A stretch of DNA of 64,000 nucleotides. Origin: Opitutaceae bacterium. Lineage in GTDB: Bacteria > Verrucomicrobiota > Verrucomicrobiia > Opitutales > Opitutaceae. The stretch covers positions 124,001 through 188,000 of the forward strand of contig JAEUGX010000054.1 in assembly GCA_016795545.1 (NCBI GenBank), read 5' to 3'. Below, piece after piece: positions 860 to 12,759 of the stretch. A model generated the notes under the pieces. It was not told where the DNA came from. It made no database searches and worked only from the letters and a program-made list of their open reading frames with translations. A program made the translations under genes and the position numbers. Position 1 is the stretch's first letter; each line of letters starts with the position of its first letter.

Positions 860-871
860 GCCGTCCGATCC

Positions 872-973
872 ATGCTCAACGCCGTCGTCATTGCTCTGAT
901 TATTGTTGTCCTGGCCCTTCTTGCCACGGATCCAACCAACCATGGGCGGCTCGCTAAAGCCTCAAGCTTCTAA
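872..973 (+). CDS. Branched-chain amino acid leader peptide (ilvL-like)
   Basis: A 33-codon ORF, ATG to TAA, ends 138 nt before ilvD. Residues 2-17 are almost purely hydrophobic, and 12 of the first 17 residues are Leu, Val or Ile (for example 'VVIALIIVVLALL'). This matches leader peptides such as enterobacterial IlvL (about 32 residues, rich in Ile/Val/Leu), whose translation senses charged branched-chain tRNAs. A rho-independent terminator follows its stop codon by 27 nt, which is the layout needed for attenuation. The Shine-Dalgarno sequence is weak (AGG at 851-853). The short hydrophobic peptide could otherwise be a small membrane protein, but its position and the overlapping RNA structures argue for a leader. 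Confidence 0.8.
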   Translation: MLNAVVIALIIVVLALLATDPTNHGRLAKASSF

Positions 974-999
974 GAGAAAACTCTCAAAAAAAACGGAAG

Positions 1000-1030
1000 C
1001 CGCCCTCAAAAAGGGCGGTTTTTTTATTTT
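1000..1030 (+). terminator. Rho-independent terminator (attenuator) before ilvD
   Basis: A 7-bp GC-rich stem (CCGCCCT / AGGGCGG) with a 5-nt CAAAA loop is followed by a run of seven T, one A and four more T. It is the strongest intrinsic terminator in the window. It lies 81 nt upstream of the ilvD start rather than behind a gene, which fits conditional termination. Confidence 0.9.
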
Positions 1031-2817: not shown

Positions 2818-4674
2818 ATGAAACTCACCGGAGCTGAAATCATTTGGGAGTGCCTCCTGCGCGAAGGCGTGGAGGTGGTCTTTGGCTACCCGGGCGGCGC
2901 CATCCTGCCCGCCTACGACGCGATGACCAAGTACCCGAAAATCCACCACGTGCTCGTCCGCCACGAACAGGGCGCGACGCACATGGCCGACGGCTACGCC
3001 CGCGCCAGCGGCAAGGTCGGCGTGGCCATCGCCACCTCGGGCCCGGGCGCGACCAACATGGTCACGGGCATCGCCACCGCCATGATGGATTCGTCGCCGA
3101 TCGTGTGCATCACGGGCCAGGTCGGCTCGAAGGCCATCGGCACCGACGCCTTCCAGGAGACGGACGTGACCGGAGTCACGCTGCCGATCACCAAGCACAA
3201 CTACCTGGTCACGAAGCCGGGCGAGATCGCCCGCGCCATCCGCGAGGCCTTCTACATCGCCAAGAGCGGCCGGCCCGGCCCGGTGCTGGTCGACATTACC
3301 AAGGACGCGCAGCAGCTCTCGGCCGAGTTCGACTGGGAGGGCGCCGCGCCGCGGCTGCCCGGCTACCGGCCCAGCTACCACGCTCCGGCGTCGGAATACG
3401 CCCGCGCGGCCGAGCTCATCAACGCCGCCAAGCGCCCGTTGATCCTGGCGGGGCAGGGGATCATCAAGTCCGGCACCACCGACGCGGTGCTGCAGCTGGC
3501 CCGCGTCGCCGGCATCCCGATCTCCACGACGCTGCTCGGCATCGGCGCCATTCCCGCCTCGTCGCCGCACAACCTCGGCATGATGGGCATGCACGGCGAG
3601 GCCTGGGTGAACCAGGCCATCCAGCAGGCCGACCTGCTGATCGCGCTCGGCATGCGGTTTGACGACCGCGTGACCGGCAACCTCAAGACCTACGCGCTCA
3701 ACGCCAAGAAGATCCACGTCGACATCGACCCGACCGAGATCAACAAGAACGTGCCTGTCGACGTCGCGCTCATCGGCGACCTCGGCGAGGTGCTCGCCCA
3801 GATCCAGCCGCAGGTGAAGCCCGCCGAGCGCGCCGAGTGGTGGGACCTCATCAAGGCCCAGCGCGGCGACGCCGCCGTGCGCGACATCCAGAGCCTGCCC
3901 GACAACGGCCACCTCTACGCGGCGCACGTGATCAACGACATCTGGCGCTTCACCCGCGACCGCGACACCATCGTGGTGACGGACGTGGGCCAGCACCAGA
4001 TGTGGGAGGCGCAGTATTACCGCCATGAGAAGCCCCGCTCGCTCATCACCTCCGGCGGCCTCGGTACCATGGGCTTCGCCCTGCCGGCGGCCATCGGCGC
4101 CAAGTTCGCGTGCCCGGACAAGGACGTGTGGGTGGTCGTCGGCGACGGCGGCTTCCAGATGACCATGCCCGAGCTCGCCACCGCGGAGCAGGAGAAGATC
4201 AAGGTCAACGTGGCCGTCATCAACAACGCTTTCCTCGGCATGGTGCGCCAGTGGCAGGAATTCTTCTATGACAAGCGCTACGCCGCCACGCCCATGACGG
4301 GGCCCGACTTCGTCAAGCTCGCCGAGGCTTTCCGCCTCAAGGGGCTCCGCTGCGACCGGCGGTCGGCGGTGAAGTCGACTGTGGAGAAAACCCTGGCCGA
4401 GCCGGGGACCGTGGTCATTGATTTCGTCGTGGAAAAGGAAGACACCGTGTTCCCGATGGTCCCCGCCGGCGCGGATCTCGACAAGATGATCCGCCGCCCG
4501 AAGCAGGACGTGCTGGCCGAGAGCGGCAACGACAAGGACTGGGAGATGCCCGCCGCCCAGGGCGCGCCGGTGGCTCCCGTCGCGGCCAAGCCGGCCCGCA
4601 ACGGCCGCGCCCGGCCGGCCCCCAAGCCCGCCCGTGCCGCCGCGCCCCGTCGCGCCAAGGCCGGCCGCCGCTAA
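2818..4674 (+). CDS. ilvB: Acetolactate synthase, large (catalytic) subunit
   Basis: 618 residues. A thiamine-diphosphate and FAD enzyme that condenses two pyruvates to acetolactate, or pyruvate with 2-oxobutyrate to acetohydroxybutyrate. The catalytic glutamate is E50 ('VRHEQGATH'); the ThDP motif starts at GDGG 443-446 and ends at the NN of 'VINNAF'. The regulatory subunit follows 12 nt downstream. Odd feature: after the usual family end (about residue 560) there is a ~58-residue tail rich in Ala, Pro, Arg and Lys, not part of the catalytic fold and of unknown role. Confidence 0.96.
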
Positions 4675-4686
4675 CCCAACCCTCCC

Positions 4687-5256
4687 ATGGCCAAACATAC
4701 GCTCATCGCCTACGTCGAGGACGTGCCGGGTGTCCTGAACCGGGTCGCCTCGCTCTTCCGCCGCCGCAACTTCAACATCGATTCCCTGACCGTCGGCCGG
4801 ACCGAGCAGGCCGGCGTCTCGCGCCTGACCGTCGTGGTCGACGCGACCGAGGCCGGCGCCCGGATCGTCGAGGCCAACCTCTACAAGCTGGTCAACGTCC
4901 TCCGCGTCGACGACCTCACCCACAAGGCGTCGCTCATGCGCGAGCTGGCCCTGGTCAAGGTCAAGGTCACCCCCGCGACCCGCAGCCAGGTCCTCCAGCT
5001 CGTGGAGGTCTTCCGCGCCCGCGTGGTCGACGTCGACGAGCAGACGCTCGTCATCGAGGTCACCGGCACCCCGGAGAAGATCGTCAAGTGCGAGCTCGTC
5101 ATGCGCCCCTACGGCATCGTCGAGATCGTCCGCACCGGCGCGGTCGCGATGGCGCGCGGCCACGAGCTGCTCTCCTCGGCGCCGCCGCTCGTGCCCACCG
5201 AGAACGTCACCGGCGACCACGCCCACGACACGTCCGGCATCTCCATGTCGGTCTAG
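4687..5256 (+). CDS. ilvN: Acetolactate synthase, small (regulatory) subunit
   Basis: 189 residues, typical for IlvN/IlvH. The N-terminal ACT domain (about residues 3-78, starting '[18 protein letters not shown]') binds valine for feedback inhibition; '[13 protein letters not shown]' is the usual ACT signature. The C-terminal half (about 80-165) is the ALS_ss_C domain. It pairs with IlvB encoded just upstream. It ends with a ~20-residue polar extension. The start ATG directly precedes the conserved N-terminus. Confidence 0.95.
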
Positions 5257-5300: not shown

Positions 5301-6317
<1,017 letters not shown>

Positions 6318-6414: not shown

Positions 6415-8004
6415 ATGAAACCCGACTACGTCCGCATCTTCGACACCAGCCTCCGCGACGGCGAGCAAGCTCCCGGCGCGTCCATGACCTCGGCCGAAAA
6501 GCTAGAGGTTGCCCGGGCGCTGGCGCGACTGGGCGTGGACGTGATCGAGGCCGGGTTTCCGGCGGCGTCGCCGGACGACCTGGCGGCGGTGCAGGCGATC
6601 TCGGCCGAGGTGGGGCAGCAGTCCGTCCCGGGCCGCCCGCAGGCGGCCCCGCCCATCATCTGCGGCCTGGCCCGCTGCACGCGCAACGACATCGAGGCCG
6701 CCTGGCAGGGCGTGAAGGGCGCGCGGCACCCGCGCATCCACACCTTCCTCGCGACGAGCGACATCCACCTGAAGCACAAGCTCCGGCTCACGCGTCCGGA
6801 GATGATCGCGCGCGCGGTCGAGATGGTGGGTTTCGCCCGCTCGCTCTGCGCCGACGTCGAGTTCTCACCCGAGGACGCCGGCCGCAGCGACCCGCAGTTC
6901 CTCTACGAGGTGCTGGCCGCGGTCATCAAGGCCGGCGCCACCACGCTCAACATCCCGGACACCGTTGGCTACACCATGCCCGATGAGTTCGGGGCGCTGA
7001 TCGCCGGCATCATCCAGCACACGCCCGGAGCGCGGGATGTCACCATCTCGGTGCACTGCCACGACGACCTGGGCCTCGCGGTCGCCAACTCCCTGGCCGG
7101 GCTCCGCGCGGGCGCGCGCCAGGCCGAGGTCACCATCAACGGCATCGGGGAGCGGGCCGGCAACGCCTCGCTGGAGGAGCTCGTCATGGTCCTCCGCACC
7201 CGGGGCGAGAAGCTCGGCCTGCAGACCGGCGTCGACGCGACGCAGCTCTGCCGCGTCAGCCGCCTCGTCTCCCGCAGCACGAGCTACCCGGTGCCGCCCA
7301 ACAAGGCCATCGTGGGGGCCAACGCCTTCGCGCACGAGTCCGGCATCCACCAGGACGGCATGATCAAGAACGCCCAGACATACGAGATCATGCGCCCCGA
7401 GGACGTCGGCGCGGCCCAGACCATGCTGGTCCTCGGCAAACATTCCGGCCGCAACGCCTTCTCCAAGCGCCTCGCCGAGCTCGGCTATGCGCTCGAGGGC
7501 GACGCGCTGCTGAAGGCCTTCAACGAGTTCAAGAAGCTCGCCGACCGCAAGAAGGAGGTGCACGACGCCGACCTCATCGCCCTGGCCTCGGACGAGCGCA
7601 CCACCGTGCCCGAGCTCTGGGCGCTGGAGACCCTCCAGGTCGTCTGCGGCACCACCGGGCTGCCCACGGCCACGGTCCGCCTGCGCGACCCCGACGGCAA
7701 GACGCACGTCCACGCCGCCATCGGCACGGGACCGGTCGACGCCTGCTACAAGGCCATCGACGGGATCGTCAAGGTGCCGGTCGAGCTGCTGGAGTTCGGC
7801 ATCAGCGCCGTCACCGAGGGCATCGACGCCCTCGCCGAGGCCACCGTGCGCGTCCGCCACGACGCGCAGCGGGCCAGCCACGGGCACGGCGCGGACACCG
7901 ACATCGTCGTCGCCAGCGCCAAGGCCTACATCGCTTCCCTCAACCACGTGCTGTCGCGCCAGTCCAGCGGCCGGGCGCAGCATCCGCACGAAGTCTCCCC
8001 CTGA
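6415..8004 (+). CDS. leuA: 2-isopropylmalate synthase
   Basis: 529 residues. First step of the leucine branch: acetyl-CoA plus 2-oxoisovalerate. The TIM barrel begins with '[15 protein letters not shown]' (catalytic Arg and metal Asp); the metal-binding His pair is in '[10 protein letters not shown]'. The linker carries 'HESGIHQDG', and the C-terminal ~130 residues form the LeuA allosteric dimer domain that normally binds leucine. The gene lies 97 nt after ilvC in the same direction. It is distinguished from the related cimA at 10044 by the 'DGEQAPG' active-site loop. Confidence 0.95.
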
Positions 8005-8025: not shown

Positions 8026-9435
8026 ATGAGCCAGTCACCCAAAACCCTCTTCCAGAAAATCTGGGACGCGCACGTCGTGGCCGAGGAGCCCGGCGCGCCC
8101 GCCGTGCTGTACATCGACCTGCACCTCGTGCACGAGGTCACCTCGCCGCAGGCCTTCGCCGTGCTCAAGGAGCGCGGCCTGAAGGTGCGCCGCCCCGACC
8201 GCACGGTCGCGACGATGGACCACTCCATCCCGACGCGCGGCGGCTACGAGGCCGCCGACGAGATGGGGCGCATCCAGCTGCGCCTGCTCGAGTCGAACTG
8301 CCAGGCGCACGGCATCCGCATGTACGGCCTCGACTCCGTGCAGCGCGGCATCGTGCACGTCATCGGGCCGGAGCAGGGCTTCACCCAGCCCGGCATGACG
8401 ATCGTGTGCGGCGACAGCCACACCTCGACGCACGGCGCGTTCGGCTCGCTCGGCTTCGGCATCGGCACCAGCGAGGTGGGCCACGTGCTCGCCACCCAGT
8501 GCCTGCTCCAGCGCAAGCCGCGGACCTGCGAGGTGCGCGTCGACGGCCAACTGCGCCCGGGCGTCACCGCCAAGGACATCATCCTCGCCGTCCTGGCGAA
8601 GATCGGCGTCGGCGGCGGCACCGGCCATGTCTTCGAGTACACCGGCTCCGCCATCCGCAGCCTCGACATGGAAGGCCGCATGACGGTCTGCAACATGTCC
8701 ATCGAGGGCGGCGCGCGCGCCGGCATGGTGGCGCCCGACGACCGGACCTTCCAGTTCGTGGCCGGCCGCGAGTTCGCGCCCAAGGGCGCCGCGTGGGACC
8801 GGGCCGTCGCCCGCTGGCGGCAGCTGCCCACCGACCCGGGCGCGACGTTCGACAAGACCGTGACGCTCGACGCCTCGCGGCTCGAGCCGATGGTCACGTT
8901 CGGCACCAACCCGGGCCAGGGCGTGGCGATCACCCAGCCGCTCCCGACGCCTGCCAGCCTCTCCGACCCCAACGAGCGGGCGGGCCTGGAGAAGTCGCTC
9001 GCCTACATGAAATTCGAGCCCGGCAAGCCGATCCTCGGCCAGCCCGTGGACGTCGTCTTCCTCGGCTCCTGCACCAACTCGCGCCTCGTCGACCTCCGCG
9101 CCGCCGCCCAGCTGCTGCGCGGCCGCAAGGTCGCCGCGAACGTGCGCATGATGGTCGTCCCCGGCTCCCAGTCCGTGAAGCAGGCCGCCGAGTCGGAGGG
9201 CCTCGACCGCGTCTTCAAGGAGGCCGGCGCCGACTGGCGCGAGGCCGGCTGCTCGATGTGCATCGCCATGAACGGCGACCAGCTCAGCCCCGGCCAGCTG
9301 GCCGTGTCCACTTCCAACCGCAACTTCGAGGGCCGGCAGGGCAAGGGCGGCCGCACCGTCCTGGCCTCGCCGCTCACCGCCGTCGCCGCCGCGGTCGCCG
9401 GCCGCATCGCCGATCCGCGGGCGCTCCTGTCCTGA
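8026..9435 (+). CDS. leuC: 3-isopropylmalate dehydratase, large subunit
   Basis: 469 residues, aconitase superfamily. With LeuD it isomerises 2- to 3-isopropylmalate, and in this operon probably also citramalate to 3-methylmalate. The three [4Fe-4S] cysteines are in 'GSCTNSR' and 'GCSMCIAMN'; '[14 protein letters not shown]' is a family signature. It lies 21 nt after leuA. Confidence 0.97.
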
Positions 9436-9457: not shown

Positions 9458-10043
9458 ATGTCCGCTCCCAAATTCACCACCCTCACCGCCCGCTGCGTCG
9501 TGCTGCCCGTCATGGACGTGGACACGGACCAGATCATCCCGGCCCGTTTCCTCAAGGTCACGGACAAGAAGGGTCTCGGCGAAAAGCTGTTCTGCGACTG
9601 GCGCTACCGCGACGACGGTTCGCCGAATCCCGACTTCGTGCTGAACCGCCCCGAGTCCCAGGGCGCCCGGATCCTCGTCGCCGGCCACAACTTCGGCTGC
9701 GGCTCCTCGCGCGAGCACGCGCCGTGGGCGCTGGTCGGCTGGGGCCTCCAGGCCGTGATCTCGACGCTGTTCGCCGACATCTTCAAGGGCAACTCGCTCA
9801 AGAACGGCCTGCTCCCGATCGAGATCGCGCCCGCGGCCCACGCCGCGCTGGTCGCCGCCCGGACCCAGAACCCGCAGCTGCCGGTCACGGTCGACCTGCA
9901 CGCCCAGACGGTCGCCTGGCCCGGCCAGGCGCCGCTCCAGTTTCCGATCGATCCGTTCTCCCGCACCTGCCTGCTCGAGGGAGTGGACGAACTCGGCTAC
10001 CTGCAGAAGTTCACCCCGCAGGCCGAAGCCTACGAAGCCGCCC

Positions 10044-10051
<8 letters not shown>
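9458..10051 (+). CDS. leuD: 3-isopropylmalate dehydratase, small subunit
   Basis: 197 residues, the swivelling domain partner of LeuC. 'DVDTDQIIPARFLK' and 'GHNFGCGSSREHAPWAL' are the substrate-binding motifs of LeuD. It is 22 nt behind leuC and overlaps the next gene, cimA, by 8 nt, pointing to translational coupling. Confidence 0.97.
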
Positions 10052-11645
<1,594 letters not shown>

Positions 11646-11655
11646 ACCACTCTTC

Positions 11656-12759
11656 ATGAAAGCAAGCATCGCCCTGACTCCCGGTGACGGCATTGGCCCC
11701 GAAGTGGTCAATGAAGCCCGGCTCGTGCTCGAAGCCATCGCCCAGCGCCATGGCCACGAGTTCAAATTTTCCGAGCACCTCCTCGGTGGCTGCGCCATCG
11801 ATGCGAGGGGCACGGCCATGCCGGACGACACGCTCGCCGCCGCCCGGGCCGCCGATGCCGTGCTGCTGGGCGCCGTGGGCGGCCCCCAGTGGGACGACCC
11901 GCAGGCCAAGGTGCGGCCGGAGCAGGGCCTGCTGGCCATCCGCAAGGCGCTGGGCCTCTACGCCAACGTCCGCCCGGTCCGCCCGTATCCCGCGCTGGCC
12001 CGCCTGTCGCCGCTGAAGGCGGAGCGCGTCGCGGGCGTCGACTTCGTCGTGCTGCGCGAGCTGACCGGCGGCCTCTACTTCGGCACGCCGAAGGGCCGCA
12101 CCCAGACCCCGCAGGGCGAGGTGGCGGTCGACACGCTCGTCTACACCGAGGGGGAGATCCGGCGCATCGTCCGGCTCGCCTTCCAGATGGCGCGGCAGCG
12201 CCGCAAGCTGGTGACGTCGGTCGACAAGGCCAACGTCCTCGAGTCGTCGCGCCTCTGGCGCAAGGTCGCCATCGAGGTCGGCCGCGAGTTCCCGGACGTC
12301 AAGCTGGAGCACCAGCTGGTCGACTCCTGCGCGATGCGGCTCATCACGCACGCGCCCCAGTTCGACGTGATCGTCACCGAGAACATGTTCGGCGACATCC
12401 TGACCGACGAGGCGGCCGTGCTGGCCGGCTCGCTCGGGGTCCTGCCCAGCGCCTCGCTGGGCGAGGGCCGGCTGGGCCTCTACGAGCCGATCCACGGCTC
12501 GGCGCCGGACATCGCCGGCAAGGGCATCGCCAATCCCACGGGCACGATCCTCTCCGCCGCGCTGCTGCTCCGGCACTCGCTCGGGCTCGAGCGCGAGGCG
12601 CGCGAGGTCGAGCAGGCCGTGAACCTGGCGATCGAGGAGGGGAAGCACACCGCCGACGTCGGCGCGGCGCACCCGCTCACCACCGCGCAGATGGGCGAGG
12701 CCATCCGCGAGCGTCTCGACGCCGGCGAGGGCGCGCCGCTGTCACGGCACCAGGACTAG
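11656..12759 (+). CDS. leuB: 3-isopropylmalate dehydrogenase
   Basis: 367 residues. NAD- and Mg-dependent oxidative decarboxylation of 3-isopropylmalate (and probably 3-methylmalate). Visible motifs are 'TPGDGIGPEVV' at the N-terminus, the YxT-type 'RELTGGLYFG', and the metal and cofactor loop 'ENMFGDILTDEAA' with 'PIHGSAPDIAGKG'. It starts 10 nt after cimA. The stop codon TAG is part of the AGGAGG Shine-Dalgarno sequence of the next gene. Confidence 0.96.
   Translation: MKASIALTPGDGIGPEVVNEARLVLEAIAQRHGHEFKFSEHLLGGCAIDARGTAMPDDTLAAARAADAVLLGAVGGPQWDDPQAKVRPEQGLLAIRKALGLYANVRPVRPYPALARLSPLKAERVAGVDFVVLRELTGGLYFGTPKGRTQTPQGEVAVDTLVYTEGEIRRIVRLAFQMARQRRKLVTSVDKANVLESSRLWRKVAIEVGREFPDVKLEHQLVDSCAMRLITHAPQFDVIVTENMFGDILTDEAAVLAGSLGVLPSASLGEGRLGLYEPIHGSAPDIAGKGIANPTGTILSAALLLRHSLGLEREAREVEQAVNLAIEEGKHTADVGAAHPLTTAQMGEAIRERLDAGEGAPLSRHQD

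Follow-up and report, generated by a model that had tools for sequence, protein, structure and literature searches.

The ilv-leu-cimA operon of an Opitutaceae bacterium is, with high probability, governed by a ribosome-mediated transcription attenuator made of a leader open reading frame (ORF), an antiterminator and a terminator. The first-pass annotation of the 64,000-nucleotide stretch analysed here (the window) had already read the region in this way. This reading is now supported by comparison of related sequences, through the conservation of the leader, its codon bias, the GGG-CGG codons of its antiterminator strand and a pairing that is matched from lineage to lineage.

The operon and its leader region

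Nine genes follow the leader in the order ilvD-ilvB-ilvN-ilvC-leuA-leuC-leuD-cimA-leuB, and all of them score above their NCBIfam cut-off:

1112-2782, + strand: ilvD (TIGR00110, 698.5 bits, cut-off 618.15)
2818-4674, + strand: ilvB (TIGR00118, 725 bits, cut-off 538.35)
4687-5256, + strand: ilvN, acetolactate synthase small subunit (TIGR00119, 165.2 bits, cut-off 56.9)
5301-6317, + strand: ilvC (TIGR00465, 433.5 bits, cut-off 226.15)
6415-8004, + strand: leuA (TIGR00973, 683 bits, cut-off 598.7)
8026-9435, + strand: leuC (TIGR00170, 695.7 bits, cut-off 560.25)
9458-10051, + strand: leuD (TIGR00171, 193.1 bits, cut-off 116.25)
10044-11645, + strand: cimA, citramalate synthase (TIGR00977, 682.3 bits, cut-off 450)
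11656-12759, + strand: leuB (TIGR00169, 487.1 bits, cut-off 353.2)

An ilv-leu operon in a verrucomicrobial host had been proposed initially. The nine NCBIfam names bear this out and add cimA, and the relatives are named Opitutaceae. The cimA route lets the operon make isoleucine from pyruvate, which fits a leader carrying Ile codons beside Leu and Val codons.

The elements ahead of ilvD are listed below. The comparison rests on 30 Opitutaceae leaders (18 window-type, 12 second-type), which give 28 distinct rows in the aligned part.

804-811, + strand: TGTCATAA box, lying shortly ahead of the predicted -35 element (from the GTCATA count)
828-833, + strand: TTGACA, predicted -35 element of the leader promoter (from its conserved position)
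872-973, + strand: leader peptide ORF, 33 codons, stop UAA at 971-973
875-922, + strand: regulatory codons, 12 Leu/Val/Ile within codons 2-17 (from codon counts)
905-911, + strand: segment 1 (GTTGTCC), weak GU-containing protector for 944-950 (98.4% of cells paired in 18 leaders)
944-951, + strand: segment 2 (GGGCGGCT), antiterminator strand, codons Gly-Arg-Leu (from complementarity and codon counts)
948-961, + strand: small hairpin GGCU/AGCC competing for segment 2 (100% of cells paired in 18/18 window-type leaders)
974-985, + strand: small spacer hairpin GAGA/TCTC, predicted by folding, directly after the stop codon
995-1023, + strand: predicted intrinsic terminator, 12 pairs and a 5-nt loop, then UUAUUUU, with segment 4 in its 3' arm
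998-1005, + strand: segment 3 (AGCCGCCC), in the terminator 5' arm
1018-1030, + strand: U-rich tract of the terminator (from the sequence)

The leader ORF translates as MLNAVVIALIIVVLALLATDPTNHGRLAKASSF. Re-reading of the sequence gave exactly the 33 codons and the 12 Leu, Val or Ile (L/V/I) among the first 17 residues that had been claimed for it, and this density was reached in none of 2000 mononucleotide shuffles of 860-1030 (maximum 10). It is thus a short, translated-looking ORF with codons for the end products of the operon, as found in leader-peptide attenuators. A strict detector was run over both strands of the 64-kb window, asking for an ATG leader, at least 7 L/V/I in 10 residues and a terminator within 70 nt. 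Its sole return was the leader at 872-973; the detector has false negatives among the relatives (L032, L060, L061 and L175).

Synonymous codon choice in the leader departs from that of the operon, for which eight genes of the window operon served as reference, cimA being left out. Over its full length, the window leader alone uses ATT for 3 of 3 Ile (P 4.6e-5) and CTT for 2 of 6 Leu (P 1.9e-4). ATT accounts for 75 of the 88 Ile codons in the 30 Opitutaceae leaders against 6/168 in the operon genes, and CTT for 69 of the 178 Leu codons against 1/277, counts that are not independent over the 30 leaders since these share kinship. Upstream of segment 2, the GC content at third positions (GC3) of the 30 leaders is 0.51 in L/V/I codons and 0.81 in the remaining ones, against 0.98 and 0.94, respectively, in the operon. 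A general A+T drift is thus not the whole cause, the other leader codons having held a GC3 of 0.81. With an assumed footprint size, the zone where a stalled ribosome would free segment 2 holds 12 of the 13 L/V/I codons in the window leader and 10-14 such codons in every one of the 30 leaders. Segment 2 is itself read as GGG-CGG in 29/30 leaders, with GGG in 30/30, while GGG makes up 8.4% of the Gly codons and CGG 25.8% of the Arg codons in the operon.

An intrinsic terminator is predicted between the leader ORF and the first gene. It had been placed 81 nt ahead of ilvD, and the U tract does end about 81 nt short of the ilvD start at 1112. Such a terminator alone is weak evidence, because terminator-like sites also occur in shuffles (two such sites in 801 nt against a shuffle mean of 1.1). 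In the alternative pairing, GGGCGGCT at 944-951 is the exact reverse complement of AGCCGCCC at 998-1005, so that the 8-nt complementarity to the terminator 5' arm reported earlier holds to the base. This antiterminator pairing would exclude the terminator. The duplex between the 3' part of the leader and the terminator arm has a z of -2.6 against 200 dinucleotide shuffles.

Two protector pairings had also been proposed. The one between 905-911 and 944-950 is kept in relatives, and a 6-pair equivalent is found in the 12 second-type leaders (97.2% of cells paired); no compensatory change was seen in this 1:2 pairing in either set (18 and 12 leaders). The other, through 861-867 upstream of the ATG, appeared in the fold and was dropped because no counterpart was seen in relatives and because this segment may not be transcribed. 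The GGCU/AGCC hairpin was not seen by eye in the 12 second-type leaders. The spacer hairpin varies by lineage (GAG/CTC or AAATC/GATTT) and is not predicted in every leader.

A TTGAC motif precedes the leader ATG by 39-51 nt in 30/30 leaders, and none of the 30 has AGG, GGA or GAG, the Shine-Dalgarno-like triplets, at -15 to -5. Taken together, these two features predict a very short 5'UTR. Leaderless attenuator ORFs occur in other systems, so that a leader with a short 5'UTR would be a variant rather than a novelty. A sigma-70 scan returned no site ahead of the leader on the + strand, and no good -10 hexamer is seen in Opitutaceae; a TATAAT-like -10 is visible by eye in most Anaerolineae leaders. 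In 20/30 leaders, GTCATA occurs in the 75 nt that precede the leader ATG.

Related leaders in Opitutaceae

Close relatives of the window's IlvD (80-89% identity) were found in 13 other genomes of the family among 150 drawn, the remaining IlvD matches listed in these 150 being at most 51% identical and eight genomes having none. Of 14 loci gathered in this way, L002, which is the window itself, and eight taken as copies of named loci were dropped; together with named records the set of 30 leaders was reached. Loss or frameshift of the leader ORF in related genomes had been named beforehand as an outcome that would speak against attenuation; the ORF is intact in all 30 near-relative ilvD leaders. 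In all of them segment 2 keeps its reading frame within the ORF, and a GCCGCC-arm terminator stands ahead of ilvD. The stretch from segment 2 to the stop codon is 9 nt shorter in most second-type leaders, measuring 27 nt in 18/18 window-type leaders and 18 nt in 10/12 of the second type.

Covariation in both alternative stems had been suggested as a check. In the 28 distinct rows, the 10-pair terminator core has 99.6% of cells paired and two pairs changed on both sides; the antiterminator 2:3 pairing has 98.2% of cells paired and no double change. A 10-pair antiterminator in the 12 second-type leaders is 95.8% paired with one double change, which 76/500 shuffles match and which is not beyond chance. 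This change is in L078, where a U-A pair becomes C-G in all three strands, segment 4 being changed too. Only a weakened segment 2 is left in L036, and L047 and L048 have a mismatch in the 2:3 pairing. Segment 2 hardly varies, which keeps covariation within Opitutaceae thin and not separated from chance by the shuffles.

A leader model gave strong matches (E 8.0e-17 or better) in 33/252 family genomes, all of genera g1, g40 and g28. Many of these are strong by construction, the model being built from the same 30 leaders, and the downstream gene was checked for some of them only; further strong matches were not added to the 30-leader set. At E 0.01, weak matches occur in 207/252 family genomes and, being present in most of them, mean little. 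When the window's own genome was searched by pattern for more such switches, five matches came up, of which the known site alone has, by eye, the A/U-rich spacer and tail.

Leaders rich in Phe and Tyr are picked up by the ilv-leader model too, in several Opitutaceae genera, ahead of a DAHP synthase-like gene whose best match, PRK08673, stays under its cut-off (274 against 335 bits). They were found in 9 of 30 surveyed loci (the best 30 of 100 genomes). These leaders, e.g., MNRFAAYFYFGFAGYFTPQ, carry a GGGCGGC/GCCGCCC-like switch (L144, L146-L154, L156-L158, L160, L220-L223, L226, L227, L230, L234 and L236). L155 has a Phe/Tyr leader too, its downstream gene being putative. The window's own genome gave no close DAHP synthase of the Phe/Tyr-leader type in this survey. 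In L161 (genome G109), an Ile-rich leader (MSLRAVIIAAMIMILPESGRRRVTA) and a terminator precede a threonine ammonia-lyase-like gene, of which a 140-residue piece was classified, and segments 2, 3 and 4 differ jointly from those of the ilvD leaders. Some Opitutaceae thus seem to use the attenuator at several operons. In genus g10 (genome G009), L159 and L175 show an L/V/I leader, an intermediate switch and a poor U tract ahead of an ilvB of the attenuated type. Leader-like matches with GCCGCCC-arm terminators were also noted in L142, L143 and L145 (MMSRLTWLPINDTTSKHVVVILFAPIAGRLSHT and kin; MMQVRSNVSLMLTPWYATSKAITRTLTGAL). A strict-detector match in L187 was judged to be coding sequence and was not found by a relaxed detector.

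Matched pairing and predicted working

The 2:3 pairing is stronger than the dinucleotide-shuffle mean in 55/55 leaders (42 ilv and 13 Phe/Tyr, L152 and L156 being left out of the latter), with z from -1.3 to -4.6. Its sequence changes between lineages, and those with a different segment 3 have segment 2 changed to match: GGUUAGG:CCUAACC or GGUUGGG:CCCAACC in Anaerolineales, UUGGGUGG:CCACCCAA in L060, AGUUGG:CCAACU in g10 and UCAGGGC:GCCCUGA in the ilvA leader. The pairing is weaker in L061 and L082. Comparison of cognate with non-cognate cross-pairing gave a mixed outcome, the cognate pairs not always being the strongest; GC-rich arms cross-pair well, and this test is not counted as proof. Nor are the per-position pair types counted as covariation, since they were taken from best duplexes and lean towards pairing.

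Folding was analysed on transcripts cut off ahead of segment 4, a 30-nt footprint standing for the ribosome at every codon. The value read was the mean probability P of any upstream pairing for G/C bases in the terminator 5' arm. In the window, an A site at codons 2-21 leaves 944-951 free and gives a mean P of 0.89, against 0.33-0.66 at codons 22-33. Without a ribosome, P is 0.89 in the window and 0.93 on average over the 30 Opitutaceae leaders. This fold already favours upstream pairing, which means that the classic 1:2 protector is weak in the Opitutaceae ilvD leaders: an untranslated leader would be read through, and masking of segment 2 by the ribosome has to be assumed. The protector helix, one of the parts proposed at first, is by this test the weakest part of the attenuator in Opitutaceae. 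In this model, masking of segment 2 by the moving ribosome appears likelier for the ilvD switch of this family than a classic protector. With the ribosome at the stop codon, P is back to 0.88 in the window (mean of the 30 leaders, 0.71), which makes termination depend on timing or on the ribosome blocking nearby pairing; this is a weak point of the model unless, as we infer, the ribosome at the stop codon hinders such pairing sterically.

A P value higher in the stalled state than both without a ribosome and with a ribosome at the stop codon was obtained for 1/30 Opitutaceae ilvD leaders, 4/13 Phe/Tyr leaders (no ribosome/best stall means of 0.81/0.97) and 6/8 Anaerolineales leaders (0.33/0.75). 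Classic protector behaviour was seen in these 6/8 Anaerolineales leaders as well as in 2/2 Thermoflexales leaders (0.28/0.86), in the g10 ilvB leader (0.00/0.75) and in the ilvA leader (0.19/0.77).

The switch could work as follows. RNA polymerase would start just ahead of the leader ORF, as predicted from TTGACA. When Leu-, Val- or Ile-tRNA is short, the ribosome would stall on the AUU/CUU-rich run of codons 2-17 and leave segment 2 (944-951) bare, to pair with the emerging segment 3 (998-1005); the terminator could then not form and the operon would be transcribed. With ample charged tRNA, the ribosome would cover segment 2 while segment 3 is being made, segments 3 and 4 would pair, and transcription would be expected to stop in vivo at about 1030. 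A terminating ribosome would cover segment 2 in second-type leaders, where 18 nt separate it from the stop codon; at the 27 nt of the window type, segment 2 would be masked in transit.

Other functions for these elements have to be weighed against attenuation. The terminator could serve the upstream gene constitutively, or could be a signal for processing, with the leader ORF encoding a small secreted or membrane peptide: the hydrophobic L/V/I run does resemble a membrane helix, and an ORF on the same strand ends upstream at 598. Yet TTGAC stands between that ORF and the leader, at a similar spacing in 30/30, a peptide does not explain the synonymous bias to ATT/CTT and GGG-CGG, and lineages that differ in sequence still keep the leader complementary to the terminator arm, which makes this explanation very unlikely. 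It is no more credible that a metabolite riboswitch, a T-box or a protein-bound RNA switch runs the terminator with an incidental ORF, even though a terminator with an alternative pairing is common to these classes. At the gathering threshold, Rfam returned only tRNAs and one distant SAM riboswitch in the window and eight related loci, with no family, T-box or aptamer in the leader region. Moreover, the leader codons follow the operon, L/V/I before ilv and Phe/Tyr before the DAHP synthase-like gene. The best sub-threshold leader families, Phe_leader with 21.3 and Thr_leader with 15.1 bits against 55 for each, were rejected. The SAM riboswitch (L054:1532-1654, minus strand) lies in an Anaerolineales contig and is unrelated to the leader.

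The Chloroflexota link and the known attenuators

Outside Opitutaceae, the nearest IlvD proteins are those of Anaerolineae (65-71% identity), followed by Acidobacteria and others at 65% or less, among the best 80 of 170 named records, 24 of which are of the window's IlvD type. In a sample of 288 genomes of the window's own phylum, no IlvD outside g1 and g40 exceeded 53% identity among the matches listed. An L/V/I leader and a terminator precede ilvD in 10/10 Anaerolineae loci with enough upstream DNA (L057, with 32 nt upstream, was left out of the attenuator counts), and the order ilvD-ilvB-ilvN-ilvC-leuA-leuC was found in 7/7 Anaerolineae loci examined for gene order. The two Thermoflexales loci (L060 and L061) have an extra small ORF ending in DHYNG between attenuator and ilvD. 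The ilvC of the seven Anaerolineae loci is split in identity to the window's, 33-35% in L053, L054, L056, L060 and L062 and 68-69% in L058 and L059, and ilvC may thus have been swapped inside the shared operon.

In an IlvD tree of 73 rows, from which L082 (438 aligned residues) was left out, the 15 attenuated Opitutaceae form one clade (100/100) beside the Anaerolineales (98/88), with the Thermoflexales outside (100/98); all three together stand at 100/99, and the other Opitutaceae sit among other Verrucomicrobiota. Forcing the Anaerolineae into one clade costs 21.7 log units and is not rejected (p-AU 0.151). In a quick IlvB tree, which holds Opitutaceae and Anaerolineae only and leaves out 16 loci without ilvB, the attenuated Opitutaceae and g10 stand next to two Anaerolineales (96), far from other Opitutaceae. 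The window operon's IlvD and IlvB thus have a foreign look among Verrucomicrobiota and fall with those of Anaerolineae, and an exchange between Opitutaceae and Chloroflexota, in one direction or the other, is well supported by these protein comparisons.

The distribution of the attenuator was followed with the relaxed detector in the ilvD and ilvB sets, up to 800 nt upstream; it finds 38 of 40 positives, L034 and L078 being seen by eye. An attenuator is present in 40/40 loci of the window's IlvD type with enough DNA, 24 of them rows of the tree. Within 800 nt upstream of other ilv genes it was found in 0/105 loci, namely 19 IlvD kin, 16 other Opitutaceae ilvD, 21 other Opitutaceae ilvB, 23 other Verrucomicrobiota ilvD and 26 Pelagibacter. 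The nearest other IlvD kin account for 0/19, of which 17 are in the tree; some of these have a gene ending close upstream of ilvD, so that an attenuator could sit elsewhere.

A joint move of attenuator and operon between the phyla is, on this distribution, probable. It is possible, if rather doubtful, that the attenuator is real and its likeness in Anaerolineae convergent, the genes alone having been exchanged and each lineage having built its own switch. The leader peptides do differ outside the L/V/I run, as does segment 2 (GGGCGGCU versus GGUUAGGAUGGC), and a GCCGCCC terminator also stands ahead of the DAHP synthase-like gene, which suggests that this sequence may be easily reached. Against convergence stand the way the attenuator tracks the IlvD type (the 40/40 of that type against none of the 19 nearest other kin, within 800 nt) and the intermediate form of g10, where segment 2 is AGUUGGACGGC with segment 3 GCCGCCCAACU. 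A third-party donor to both phyla is also possible. It is unlikely, though conceivable, that the cassette moved from Chloroflexota to Opitutaceae and displaced the native ilv genes, and that its GGGCGGC/GCCGCCC module, re-coded afterwards with Phe/Tyr codons for DAHP synthase and Ile codons for ilvA, gave rise to an attenuation regulon spanning the family in Verrucomicrobiota.

The attenuator mechanism of Escherichia coli and Salmonella involves an L/V/I-rich leader ORF. Their ilvGMEDA, ilvBN and leu attenuators share with the present one this kind of ORF, a bias in the regulatory codons, mutually exclusive antiterminator and terminator, and the control of ilv/leu genes. Here, in contrast, other phyla are concerned, a single leader stands ahead of ilv, leu and cimA genes together, the Shine-Dalgarno-like triplet is lacking (30/30), the Opitutaceae protector is weak and Rfam gives no match. 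The three enterobacterial attenuators are listed in PMC1183508, where the rare Leu codons of the leu leader, the paradigm of regulatory codon bias, are discussed and the paradigm is called oversimplified.

The first-pass annotation had called the mechanism best known from Proteobacteria, which is only part of the picture, as cases in Actinobacteria and Firmicutes have also been described (PMC1262725, PMC2965389, PMC10272879). In 2010, leader peptide systems had, to the knowledge of the authors of PMC2965389, been shown only in Proteobacteria and Actinobacteria, to which they added Firmicutes. The Corynebacterium ilvB-II motif has an upstream ORF rich in branched-chain codons, a terminator and an antiterminator before an ilv operon, and the ilvB-OMG motif likewise has such an ORF; both differ from the present leader in preceding ilvB, and the Corynebacterium ORF usually has 15-17 residues (PMC10272879). 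The main text of that paper, which takes ilvB-OMG from 'various bacterial phyla', holds no occurrence of Verrucomicrob- or Chloroflex-. The actinobacterial ilvB/leuA leaders also have short I/V/L-codon ORFs before ilvB, but in their case ORF and terminator overlap, and substituted codons made no difference in Streptomyces, which makes the mechanism uncertain in that case (PMC1262725). For the Firmicutes his attenuators, again leader peptides outside Proteobacteria, a potential horizontal transfer of operon and RNA attenuator was proposed inside Firmicutes (PMC9413887), whereas the holders here belong to different phyla.

In open-licence literature searched in full text, no described leader-peptide attenuation was found for Verrucomicrobia/Verrucomicrobiota, Chloroflexi or Opitutus, in agreement with the initial annotation, which was aware of no verrucomicrobial case. 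A 2010 survey of attenuation by Lopatovskaya and others may touch on Verrucomicrobiota and Chloroflexota. The matches in an Akkermansia paper concern ErmB. Judged from the compared sequences, the attenuator is very probably real and, within the literature searched, new for Verrucomicrobiota and Chloroflexota, while known in kind.

Leader-peptide attenuation has often been treated as a device of Proteobacteria, with some cases in Actinobacteria and Firmicutes, and the comparative evidence would now extend it to two further phyla. The probable exchange of a sensor together with its operon across phyla goes beyond the first-pass annotation. That attenuator and IlvD type go together in both phyla would be a concrete case of a translation-dependent RNA switch that travels with its operon and still works in a distant host, since all it needs is a ribosome, tRNA and intrinsic termination. 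The system also lends itself to testing whether rare AUU/CUU codons and masking by the ribosome, rather than a protector hairpin, set the response in Opitutaceae.
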